A stretch of 64,000 bases of DNA from Chloroflexota bacterium. GTDB taxonomy: Bacteria > Chloroflexota > Limnocylindria > Limnocylindrales > CSP1-4. The translations under genes and the position numbers were made by a program. The notes below the pieces were generated by a model that saw only the letters and a list, made by a program, of their open reading frames with translations, did not search any database and was not told the DNA's origin. Where the stretch lies: NCBI GenBank assembly GCA_021785175.1, contig JAJYGH010000013.1:1-64000 (forward strand), in the 5' to 3' direction. Below are positions 42,826 through 46,049 of the stretch, piece after piece. Every line of letters starts with the position of its first letter. Within the stretch, counting starts at the first letter, position 1.

Positions 42826-43341
42826 TCAGCGCGGATTCCGGTATCGGAACCGCCTGGGCCGCCGTCCCGTCTGGCCTCCGCTCTTCGGGACGACGCTGAT
42901 CGACCCGTCCTGTTCCAGCACCACGAGCTGCGCGTCCTGAACGCGCGCGACCCCATGCTCTCGCAGCGCGGTCTCGAGGTCCCCGTCGTCCAGCTCCTCC
43001 GCGTCGATCGCGCGCCGGATCCACTTGCCGCCCCGCGCGAGGACGGTCGGCTCCGACTCGAGCAGGCGCCGCACGATCGGGACGCGCTCCCGGGTCCACG
43101 ACACCCCCAGGTTCAGCACGAAGATCGTGCCGATGATGATGGCCGCACCGGGGATGGAGCTGTCCGGCCCCGTGATCGCAGGCTGCAGCGCGTTCGCTGC
43201 GAGCAGCACGAGCGCCAGGTCGAACAGCGTGAACTGCCCGATCTCGCGCTTGCCGAAGACGCGCAGCGCGACGATGAACATGAGATAGACGATGGCGGTC
43301 CGCGCCACCAGCTCGAGGGGCGGGGTCCCGAGATGCCACAT
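42826..43341 (-). CDS. DUF421 (YetF-like) membrane protein
   Basis: A 171-residue protein with three N-terminal membrane helices (to about residue 80). A small cytoplasmic alpha/beta domain follows, containing the family sequence SWTRERVPIVRRLLESEP and later VVLEQDGSISVV. The family is widespread and of uncertain function. The basic tail ends RRFRYRNPR. It lies downstream of tRNA-Arg on the same strand. Confidence 0.85.
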   Translation of the reverse strand: MWHLGTPPLELVARTAIVYLMFIVALRVFGKREIGQFTLFDLALVLLAANALQPAITGPDSSIPGAAIIIGTIFVLNLGVSWTRERVPIVRRLLESEPTVLARGGKWIRRAIDAEELDDGDLETALREHGVARVQDAQLVVLEQDGSISVVPKSGGQTGRRPRRFRYRNPR

Positions 43342-43385: not shown

Positions 43386-43461
43386 TGGCGCGCCCGGCGG
43401 GACTCGAACCCACGGCCTTCTGCTCCGGAGGCAGACGCTCTATCCACTGAGCTACGGGCGC
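43386..43461 (-). tRNA. tRNA-Arg (anticodon CCG)
   Basis: 76 bases including an encoded CCA. The acceptor arms GCGCCCG/CGGGCGC pair perfectly, the D-arm is GCTC..GAGC, and the anticodon arm TCTGC-CTCCGGA-GCAGA reads CCG. The T-arm is GTGGG-TTCGAGT-CCCGC. TACGAT at 43475-43470 on the minus strand is a plausible -10. Confidence 0.97.
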
Positions 43462-43543
43462 ACGTGCGCATCGTACAGGATGGCGGCCCGGCGCCCCGGG
43501 ACGGCGGCTGCGCGGTGCGCGAGCGCGAATGCCCCGACAATGC

Positions 43544-43571
43544 GGAAGGCCCCTCCGAAGAGGAGCCTTCC
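43544..43571 (-). terminator. Hairpin terminator of the small RNA
   Basis: GGAAGGCTCCTC, loop TTCG, GAGGGGCCTTCC: 12 pairs including one G-U. The bases that follow (GCATTGTC) are only weakly T-rich, so release may be incomplete and some transcripts may read into tRNA-Arg. Confidence 0.65.
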
Positions 43572-43719
43572 GACACTGTCCCGGTGAAGTCTCCGATCAC
43601 CTCACGATGACACGGAGCTTCTGCCACGCTGCAAGGGCATCTATCACGCCGGCTGCACCGGCTACCCTAACCCGACCTTCCCATGACCCTGCTGCTGGGG
43701 CAGTTGCTGACGAGCAGCG
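43544..43719 (-). ncRNA. Structured small RNA candidate, about 176 nt
   Basis: On the minus strand four hairpins follow one another. H1 is 43718-43691 (GCTGCT with AGCAGC). H2 is 43667-43635 (GGGTA and GCCGG with CCGGC and TGCCC). H3 is 43621-43586 (GAAG, CTCCG, TCATC closed by a GTGA GNRA-type loop). H4 is 43571-43544, a 12-bp stem with a TTCG loop that should act as terminator. A promoter is positioned exactly upstream. No open frame of note runs through it. Both tetraloops are stable types only on this strand. I could not match it to SRP RNA, tmRNA or RNase P, and 6S RNA is possible but lacks an obvious closing stem between the ends. Confidence 0.65.
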
Positions 43720-43725
43720 AGGTAG

Positions 43726-43754
43726 AGTGTACCCGCGGGCATGGTCCGGCTCAA
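43726..43754 (-). promoter_or_regulatory. Promoter of the small RNA
   Basis: TTGAGC (43754-43749), 17 bases, TACACT (43731-43726), giving a start near 43719. An unusually AT-rich segment with the palindrome CCGTAA-TC-TTACGG lies at 43784-43797, around -65 to -78. It could be an activator site or UP-like element. Confidence 0.65.
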
Positions 43755-43958
43755 GGGATACACATAGCAGGCTGGTGAATATTCCGTAATCTTACGGTAC
43801 TTGCGCACTGCAGCGGCATTGCGGCGCCTGGCGGAGCCGCGAACGACCGGGGCCCGAGATTCCTCGCGGGCGTCACGACGGCCGGCCGGCGACCGCCGAC
43901 TCGTCGGGCGGGGCCGCGTCCCAGCGGCGGGCTCAGCGAGCGCTCTGCTCCAGCACCG

Positions 43959-44432
43959 TCACGCCGACGGTGCGTCGTCGACCACCACGCGGGTCATCTT
44001 CACGTCCTCGGCCGGTCGGTCGCCCGGCCCCGTGCGGACCTGCCCGATCCGGTCCACCACGTCCGTGCCTTCGGTGACGCGCCCGAAGATCGTGTAGTTC
44101 TTCGGCAGCCGCCCGCGCAGGTCGCTCAGGCACACGAACCACTGGCTGCCGTTCGTGTTCGGCCCGGCGTTCGCCATCGCCACGGTGTACTTCGCGTAAT
44201 CGAGGTCGCGTCCGGGCAGTTCGTCGGCGAACGTGTAGCCCGGGCCGCCGCGCCCGGTGCCGGTCGGGTCTCCGCCCTGGATGACGAACCCCGGCACGAC
44301 ACGATGGAACAGCACGCCGTCGTAGAACCCCTGCCGGGCGAGCTTGTCGAAGTTCGCGACGGCGTTCGGCGCGGCCGAGCGCTCGAACTCGATGTGGAAC
44401 GTCCCCAGGGTCGTGTCAACGGTCGCGCCCAT
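43959..44432 (-). CDS. Peptidylprolyl isomerase (cyclophilin), cytoplasmic
   Basis: A 157-residue bacterial cyclophilin. FHRVVPGFVIQGGDPTGTG contains the catalytic Arg and the Phe/Met-equivalent pocket. ANAGPNTNGSQWF and NYTIFGRV are the other family motifs. It has no signal peptide, so it is cytoplasmic. It is followed on the same strand at 160 bases by nothing related, and preceded by a secreted paralogue. Confidence 0.93.
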   Translation of the reverse strand: MGATVDTTLGTFHIEFERSAAPNAVANFDKLARQGFYDGVLFHRVVPGFVIQGGDPTGTGRGGPGYTFADELPGRDLDYAKYTVAMANAGPNTNGSQWFVCLSDLRGRLPKNYTIFGRVTEGTDVVDRIGQVRTGPGDRPAEDVKMTRVVVDDAPSA

Positions 44433-44593: not shown

Positions 44594-45346
44594 TCAGACC
44601 GATGGCGATGGCACGGCCGACGACGGGCCGGAGATGGCGACCGACAGGATCCGCACCGGCTGCAGCGCCTGGTCGTCCTGTGGACCGCCACGCGGTCCCG
44701 CCGCGATCTGCTCGGCGACGCCGAGGCCGGACGTGACGGTTCCGAAGATCGTGTAGGCGTGCGGGAGAGCCGCCGCCTGCGGCCCGACCACGATGAAGAA
44801 CTGTGACCCGTTCGTGTTCGGCCCGGCGTTCGCCATCGCGACGGTCCCCGGCGTGTATGAGCCGGCGAACGGCTCGTCGGGGAACGTGTAGCCCGGGCCG
44901 CCGTACCCGGTCCCGGTCGGGTCGCCGCCCTGGATCATGAAGCCCGGGACGATGCGGTGGAACGGCGTGCCGTCGTAGAAGCCGGCGCGGGCGAGGTCCA
45001 GGAAGTTCTGCGCGGCGACCGGCGCGCTGTTCGTGAAGATCGCGATCACGATGTCGCCCTTCGCCGTGCGGAGCGTCACCGTCGTGCCGTTGCCGCTGGG
45101 CTGCGCCGGGGCGGAGACCAGCGGGGTCGCTGTGGGCGGGCGGACGGACGGCACGGGGTGCGACAGGGCCGATTGGGCCGCGCCGGGGGCCCCGCCGGAC
45201 GGCGCGGCTCCGGCCGCCGAGCCCGCGGCGCCGGGCGTCGACGTCCCGCCGCATCCCGAGAGGAGGGCAGCGGCCAGCGCGAGGCCGAAGAGCCACGCCG
45301 CCCTGGGCCCGTGGGCACCTGGCCGGCCGTTCACGTCACCCGACAT
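44594..45346 (-). CDS. Peptidylprolyl isomerase (cyclophilin), lipoprotein
   Basis: A 250-residue cyclophilin exported as a lipoprotein. The lipobox is LLSGC with Cys32. A Pro/Ala/Ser/Gly linker (35-85) precedes a full domain with FHRIVPGFMIQGGDPTGTG and ANAGPNTNGSQFFI. It probably helps folding outside the membrane. Its start overlaps the end of the hisA-like gene by 11 bases. It and the cytoplasmic paralogue downstream share long identical motifs, suggesting an old tandem duplication. Confidence 0.9.
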   Translation of the reverse strand: MSGDVNGRPGAHGPRAAWLFGLALAAALLSGCGGTSTPGAAGSAAGAAPSGGAPGAAQSALSHPVPSVRPPTATPLVSAPAQPSGNGTTVTLRTAKGDIVIAIFTNSAPVAAQNFLDLARAGFYDGTPFHRIVPGFMIQGGDPTGTGYGGPGYTFPDEPFAGSYTPGTVAMANAGPNTNGSQFFIVVGPQAAALPHAYTIFGTVTSGLGVAEQIAAGPRGGPQDDQALQPVRILSVAISGPSSAVPSPSV

Positions 45347-46049
45347 CGTTCGCCGCCTCCACCGCCTCCCGGTAGTCCACCCGTCCGGACAGCAGCGCCT
45401 CGCCGAGGATGACGGCCACGACGCCGGACTGCGCGAGCCGCCGGATCGCGTCGAGCGACGCGACGCCTCCGGCCACCGAGAACTCGGCATCTGCCGCCGC
45501 GGTCAGCGCCGCGAGCAGCCCTCGATCCGGCTCCTCGCCGCCGTGGGACAGCACGAACCGCTGCACGCCCTCGCCCGCCAGCCGCTCGACGAGCTGCGCC
45601 ACCGTCGGTGGGGTCCCGCTCTGCCAGCGGTATTCGCGCATCCGCTCGGGGCGTGGGTCGAGGCCCACCGCGAGCCAGCTCCCGGCCACGTCGAGACAGG
45701 CACGCAGCCTGCGCGCGTCCTCGGCCACGGCGAGGAGTGGCATCACGACGCGCGTGGCGCCGGCCGCGAACAGCAGCTGGATCTGCTCGGGGCCGTCGGC
45801 GCCGCCGGCCACCTGGAGCGGCGCGGCGACCTCGGACGCGGTCCGGCTCACGACCTCGAGCGCGACGGGCCTGCCGCGGCGCGCGCCGTCCATGTCAACG
45901 AGATGGATCGCCGGCGCTCCGAGCTCGACGAACTGCCGGGCGATCCGCTCGGGCCGGTCCGTCGGCGCCCCCCTGCCGGTCGAGGCGCCCGGCCAGAACA
46001 CCAGCCGCGAGCGCCCCTCCGTGACGTCGATGCTCGGGATGACCTGCAT
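45336..46049 (-). CDS. HisA-like phosphoribosylformimino-AICAR-P isomerase
   Basis: A 237-residue TIM barrel of the HisA/HisF family. The N-terminal Asp in PSIDV and the second-half Asp in VGLDPR match the catalytic pair of HisA. VDMDGA, GGADG and SVAGGVASLDAI are phosphate-loop regions. It is shorter and less conserved than most HisA, and no other his gene is present, so it might serve histidine synthesis from a scattered pathway or have another isomerase role. ATG shares a base with the DUF885 stop. Confidence 0.75.
   Translation of the reverse strand: MQVIPSIDVTEGRSRLVFWPGASTGRGAPTDRPERIARQFVELGAPAIHLVDMDGARRGRPVALEVVSRTASEVAAPLQVAGGADGPEQIQLLFAAGATRVVMPLLAVAEDARRLRACLDVAGSWLAVGLDPRPERMREYRWQSGTPPTVAQLVERLAGEGVQRFVLSHGGEEPDRGLLAALTAAADAEFSVAGGVASLDAIRRLAQSGVVAVILGEALLSGRVDYREAVEAANDVG

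Follow-up and report, generated by a model that had tools for sequence, protein, structure and literature searches.

Actinobacteria without 6S RNA use Ms1, an RNA included in Rfam whose central bubble lies between two short hairpins, one at either end (PMC9130861), or alternatively the CoRP RNA, which is encoded among tRNA genes (PMC11077062), with one abundant RNA polymerase-associated RNA type per species in this phylum (PMC9130861, PMC11077062). Orphan structured RNAs have also come from intergenic pipelines (e.g. PMC11109978, PMC6429828), on the same kind of evidence as that given below, namely a GC-rich intergenic region, covariation and synteny; the small RNA described here differs from these in that no curated Rfam 15 family matches it.

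The gene of this RNA was found on the minus strand of the window, a 64,000-nt stretch of a Limnocylindrales (Chloroflexota) contig, and its features are collected in Table 1. Comparative analysis shows it to be an unclassified, structured non-coding RNA gene that is predicted to be independently transcribed. An earlier note on this DNA had proposed a coherent transcription unit of about 176 nt just before tRNA-Arg, with a start at 43719 and a promoter with 17-base spacing, and these proposals agree with our data: TTGAGC-17-TACACT is present in the sequence and recurs in relatives, transcription is predicted to start at ca. 43718 on the minus strand for a unit of ca. 178 nt, tRNA-Arg(CCG) lies at 43461-43386 on the same strand, and the unit has a conserved promoter, strong covariation and synteny. 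A simple consensus scanner reported neither promoter nor terminator for the gene; the promoter was missed because it scores 8 of 12 consensus positions with a threshold of 9, and the terminator because its tail is poor in U. The promoter is nonetheless taken as real because it is conserved in relatives.

Table 1. Features of the small RNA locus and its two neighbours in the window (f1, f2 and f4, families of Limnocylindria; see text)
Feature	Position	Strand	Evidence or remark
Small RNA gene, about 178 nt	43540..43718	-	Ends inferred; homologues by blast, pattern and covariance model
-35 box TTGAGC	43749..43754	-	Sequence; TTG core kept across families
-10 box TACACT, 17-nt spacer	43726..43731	-	Sequence; consensus TAnAnT (f1), TATCCT-like (f2, f4)
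Upstream element ATTACGGAATATTCACC (family consensus GTTAnGGAATnTTnACC)	43774..43790	-	Imperfect dyad, ~20 bases 5' of -35 box
Cyclophilin-type peptidyl-prolyl isomerase gene, upstream neighbour	43959..44432	-	Pfam PF00160, E=1.7e-40
tRNA-Arg (CCG), downstream neighbour	43386..43461	-	Same strand as small RNA
5' hairpin GCUG-CUCGU-CAGC	43706..43718	-	Detectable in 78/79 f1 loci, many different stem sequences
Conserved core	43617..43707	-	Covariance model match, 104.9 bits
P1, CUGCC (5' strand) against GGCAG (43625-43621)	43699..43703	-	3/3 scored pairs compensatory; 90% of cells paired
P2, ..CAGGGUCAU (5' strand) against AUGCCCUUGCAGC (43640-43628)	43683..43695	-	9/12 pairs compensatory; 94.9% of cells paired
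Internal loop, G-rich 5' side GGGAAGGUCGGGUUAGGGUA	43663..43682	-	Four invariant G tracts
Internal loop, 3' side GUGAUAG (GUGAAAG in f4)	43641..43647	-	Conserved column block
P3 hairpin GCCGGU-GCA-GCCGGC	43648..43662	-	5/6 pairs compensatory; 100% of cells paired
3' hairpin P4 (CUCCG..GUCAUC-GUGA-GGUGAU..CGGAG)	43591..43617	-	Hairpin preserved among f1 relatives, with 63 different stem/loop sequences
Linker CACCGGGACAGU 5' of terminator stem	43574..43585	-	Conserved, pattern CCGG(GA)CAGC
Terminator-like stem, 13 bp, UUCG loop	43543..43572	-	Poor U-run in window copy (CAUUGU)

The structure was assessed by covariation. In a core alignment of 34 sequences, RNAalifold returned 21 pairs, 10 of which show double changes, and a covariance model then gathered 100 core copies, 81 of them distinct. 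Among these 81 sequences, whose alignment was fitted to the covariance model so that the figures lean towards the structure, 95.7% of cells pair versus 81.4% after shuffling and 29-47% when partners are slid, while the covariation score is 0.416 versus 0.161 +/- 0.008 for shuffles (none of 500 reaching the observed value) and 0.04-0.09 for slid partners. Compensatory (double) changes, the absence of which from relatives had been put forward in the earlier note as a ground for rejection, occur at 17 of the 21 pairs, so that the structure stands; several are visible by eye, as in UCGCAAGG...CCUUGCGG, UCGCAGGG...CCCCAGCGA and GGGAUCAU...AUGAUCC. The view that the locus holds only chance hairpins in a GC-rich spacer and no RNA would draw on the ease with which GC-rich DNA folds and on the simple scanners reporting no promoter or terminator, but it is refuted by the covariation together with the class-wide conservation, and virtually no weight is given to it.

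The window copy folds 3.5 sd more stably than its dinucleotide shuffles (z = -3.5), none of 200 being as stable. Its single-sequence minimum-energy fold is partly wrong in the centre when compared with the covariation structure. Four consecutive hairpins had been drawn in the earlier note; covariation resolves them better into a 5' hairpin, a rod in the centre made of P1, P2, a G-rich asymmetric internal loop and P3, a GUGA-looped 3' hairpin and the terminator hairpin. Since ca. 15% of shuffles also give a 5' hairpin, support for this element comes from replacement of its stem rather than from its presence: stems are swapped wholesale among relatives (GCUG/CAGC, ACUGCG/CGCAGU, CGUCGC/GCGACG, AUGUCGCG/CGUGGCAU) and this happens irrespective of the 3' CAGC segment. 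The full-length alignment had also shown weak closing pairs, GCUG/CAG[CU], which were dropped because the 5' hairpin covaries alone. P2 has one fixed internal mismatch, and the loop of P3 is UNNAG in f1 and f2 and of GNRA type in f4.

The internal loop is asymmetric (~20:7), and on its 5' side G26-28, G31-32, GGG and GGG are invariant in both the 34- and the 81-sequence alignments, with a consensus across relatives of GGG-WA-GG-U(N0-2)-GGG-UNA-GGG-UA; 193 matches have 0-3 bases between AGGT and GGGT. The 1-, 2- and 3-base indels found in this loop are incompatible with a conserved reading frame, which rules out a coding function.

On the 3' side, the linker takes the form ACCGGGACAG in 72 of 79 f1 loci and CCGGCAGCA in 17 of 17 f4 loci. 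The 12-bp terminator of the earlier note corresponds to a 13-bp stem with a UUCG loop; that part of the proposal holds, stems of 12-14 bp with mostly UUCG loops being kept in relatives (with 2-8 T in 10 in their tails), but the window copy has almost no U-run. The long stem with nearly no U-run at 43543-43572 is a trait of the source genus, other genera having T-rich tails, and either termination differs in this genus or the 3' end would be made by processing.

Gene neighbourhood was further used to define the status of the gene. At 104 of the 107 loci with enough sequence, a cyclophilin gene of the same orientation ends shortly before the small RNA, and tRNA-Arg(CCG) is found at most 700 bases downstream in 13/13 f2, 11/16 f4 and 19/75 f1 loci. 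The upstream gene is thus constant while the downstream neighbour varies, the promoter recurs and a terminator stem stands between, from which we conclude that the gene is a stand-alone one; this organization argues strongly for an RNA that would act in trans and not on its neighbouring gene. A riboswitch or cis-regulatory leader was rejected, as the downstream neighbour varies in f1 and is preceded by the terminator stem. More broadly, the presence of tRNA-Arg(CCG) behind the gene, in the same orientation, at every f2 locus and at most f4 loci might suggest a leader, attenuator or processing signal of this tRNA or of the next gene; this is very improbable, given the low proportion of f1 loci with a tRNA in range, the intervening stem and the -10-like sequences that the tRNA has of its own. 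That the locus encodes a real, trans-acting structured RNA is, on the data compared here, close to certain. In the window, a second cyclophilin-type prolyl isomerase gene is found in tandem with the first (43959-44432 and 44594-45490, both minus strand), and a gene for a DUF421/YetF-like membrane protein (42826-43341, minus strand) lies downstream of tRNA-Arg.

When searched against Rfam 15 (4227 families) at the gathering threshold and at E<=10, the window copy gave no match, and the f2 and f4 copies gave chance-level matches only. RNase P RNA and tmRNA, which are separate genes elsewhere in the source genome, were ruled out, as was SRP RNA, which occurs elsewhere in 10 of the 12 genomes tested; SRP RNA was undetected in the incomplete source genome, where its absence is likely an assembly gap. 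In one genome (G006), two equally scoring SRP RNA matches were observed (C35, C55). Targeted literature searches, confined to open-access published papers, found no paper on this small RNA in Limnocylindrales or Aquidulcis. The earlier note could not assign the RNA to a known family and considered a new class, a view consistent with the lack of an Rfam match, the covariation, the conserved promoter and the synteny. By every test used here, this is a new RNA family, of a broad kind that is known, i.e. lineage-restricted, independently transcribed structured RNAs. Being absent from Rfam, it is probably unannotated.

In the genomes searched by covariance model, the RNA is confined to part of one class. 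A blast search with 231 bases matched 50 of 61 related genomes, with 88-96% identity for same-genus copies and a shrinking core in other families. With the covariance model of the core, matches were obtained in 79 of the 117 Limnocylindria genomes that are at least 80% complete, corresponding to three families (57 genomes in f1, 10 in f2 and 12 in f4), and in 38 of the 53 best-quality genomes of the class; most of the f1 genomes gave a match, and each matching genome has one, except for three in one contaminated bin. No covariance-model match was found for families f3 and f5 among the genomes listed, and the best cyclophilin homologues in these two families have neither a recognisable RNA copy nor a tRNA-Arg behind them. 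In a phylum sample of 400 Chloroflexota genomes, 40 matched, all in f1, f2 or f4, and none outside these families. Finally, bacteria and archaea were scanned by pattern with one genome for each species, which gave at least 119 matching stretches; among the 80 matches listed, all are Chloroflexi/Chloroflexota, Candidatus Aquidulcis or Candidatus Limnocylindrales records with the exception of two contigs. The NCBI taxonomy assigns Aquidulcis to class Candidatus Limnocylindria. For the genomes covered, these comparisons show that most Limnocylindria carry the RNA as a single copy, transmitted vertically. A widespread, single-copy, tightly conserved RNA of a large uncultured class of soil and freshwater bacteria behaves as a housekeeping rather than an accessory one.

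The two exceptional contigs (L058 and L117) belong to the "Steroidobacteraceae" MAG JAICUY01 and carry an f4-type RNA behind a cyclophilin gene, followed by tRNA-Arg in L058 only; they are probably misbinned Chloroflexota. Three RNA copies in genome G511 (8% contamination) and two RNA-bearing contigs in MAG WY3.bin12 likewise suggest mixed bins; being single-copy, the RNA might be used to detect contamination.

The RNA resembles 6S RNA in size, single copy, own promoter, a rod with an internal loop and, possibly, role. The divergent 6S RNA considered in the earlier note is nevertheless not supported as a family assignment: the Rfam 6S model (RF00013) has no match in 43450-43860 at E<=10 and none in 151 Limnocylindria genomes, although its failure does not prove that 6S is absent, and the 5' end of the small RNA is engaged in a local covarying hairpin instead of the closing stem that 6S RNA has. 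The controls were recovered with the same model, which detected 6S in no more than 30 of 121 Chloroflexota genomes, so that unrecognised RNAs of the 6S or 6S-like kind may also exist in other classes of the phylum. 6S RNA itself binds the sigma70-type RNA polymerase holoenzyme and templates pRNA. The 6S bubble, which resembles an open promoter, is weakly conserved; a P1-P2-loop-P3 rod is present in the small RNA, but its ~20:7 loop is asymmetric, G-rich and invariant. Genomic context differs as well, since none of nine Chloroflexota 6S loci inspected has a cyclophilin or tRNA gene nearby.

With Ms1, the small RNA shares a restriction to a lineage where the 6S model finds nothing and a central bubble with end hairpins (PMC9130861). 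Ms1 is however ca. 300 nt long and neighbours an HAD hydrolase gene, as compared with ca. 180 nt, cyclophilin and tRNA-Arg flanks and no Rfam match here; synteny with an HAD-IB hydrolase was not observed, the upstream neighbour being the cyclophilin gene at nearly all loci. Ms1 binds the core RNA polymerase without sigma. The CoRP RNA of Corynebacterium is likewise clade-specific, intergenic and located beside tRNA genes, but it is 516 nt long and has been found in one genus only (PMC11077062).

Across families, sequence is frozen only in the internal loop and the two helices that bound it, the rest keeping its shape. A frozen loop on a scaffold conserved in shape alone points to a protein (or ligand) site, and the rod P1-P2-P3 would present its large asymmetric G-rich internal loop as a protein docking site. 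The best explanation of the whole is a protein-binding, trans-acting RNA whose likeliest partner would be RNA polymerase, a reading to which we give somewhat less than even confidence. RNA polymerase comes first among possible partners by analogy with Ms1 and CoRP in Actinobacteria without 6S, and on that analogy a polymerase-binding regulator is proposed only tentatively. As such, it might be a counterpart of 6S, Ms1 or CoRP, and might tune transcription with growth state. Against this count the loop, which is unlike an open promoter, the transcript, which as a whole is not one rod, and families f3 and f5, in which the models detect neither the small RNA nor 6S, so that a substitute for 6S would not account for the class as a whole. 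The extended proposal, in which 6S, Ms1 and CoRP would be joined by a fourth, independent kind of abundant regulatory RNA that binds RNA polymerase, in a class without detectable 6S, and whose loop, invariant, asymmetric, rich in G and possibly a quadruplex, would replace the open-promoter-like bubble, is speculative and on the doubtful side.

The same loop can be read in other ways. It may bind or titrate a different protein, not RNA polymerase, by way of repeated GGGUA-type motifs, as CsrB/RsmY-type RNAs titrate CsrA; repeated G tracts within one single-stranded stretch of invariant sequence and variable, scaffold-like surrounding hairpins are in line with this, but each RNA has one motif cluster rather than many separate loops, and we regard it as possible though rather unlikely. 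A conserved, exposed single-stranded stretch is also seed-like, and a base-pairing RNA could use it on C-rich mRNA sites. Besides the RNA gene itself, however, complements of the loop (<=3 mismatches, ten genomes) are as rare as a reversed-pattern control, a lack of surplus sites that weakens such a role, and a seed would not need the conserved three-dimensional context formed by P2, P3 and GUGAUAG, which makes base pairing unlikely. Lastly, all four G tracts are invariant, but of the loops that connect them the second differs in length among copies (U, UN, UUU, UUA) and the third differs in sequence (UUA/UCA/UAA), as would suit a G-quadruplex of two tiers, held by P2 and P3 and acting as a structural or ligand-binding element; yet quadruplex-aware folding predicts none in the 81 sequences, and several A and U residues of the loop are invariant too, for which a plain quadruplex has no need, so that its likelihood appears small. 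Should RNA polymerase binding hold, it would mean that other RNAs have taken on this task more than once in lineages without recognisable 6S, and the small RNA offers a well-specified structure and loop with which to test it.

A further feature of the promoter is the AT-rich upstream element, which is conserved among the 79 loci of the f1 upstream alignment, altered to GTAAAGGAnTCTTA in f4 (17 loci) and not seen in the f2 upstream alignment. Its use as a regulon marker was rejected since there is no common second site, most genomes having 1-2 matches that are usually the small-RNA promoter itself. At <=2 mismatches it matches the source genome once and relatives once or a few times, which suggests an activator or UP-type site belonging to the small-RNA promoter.
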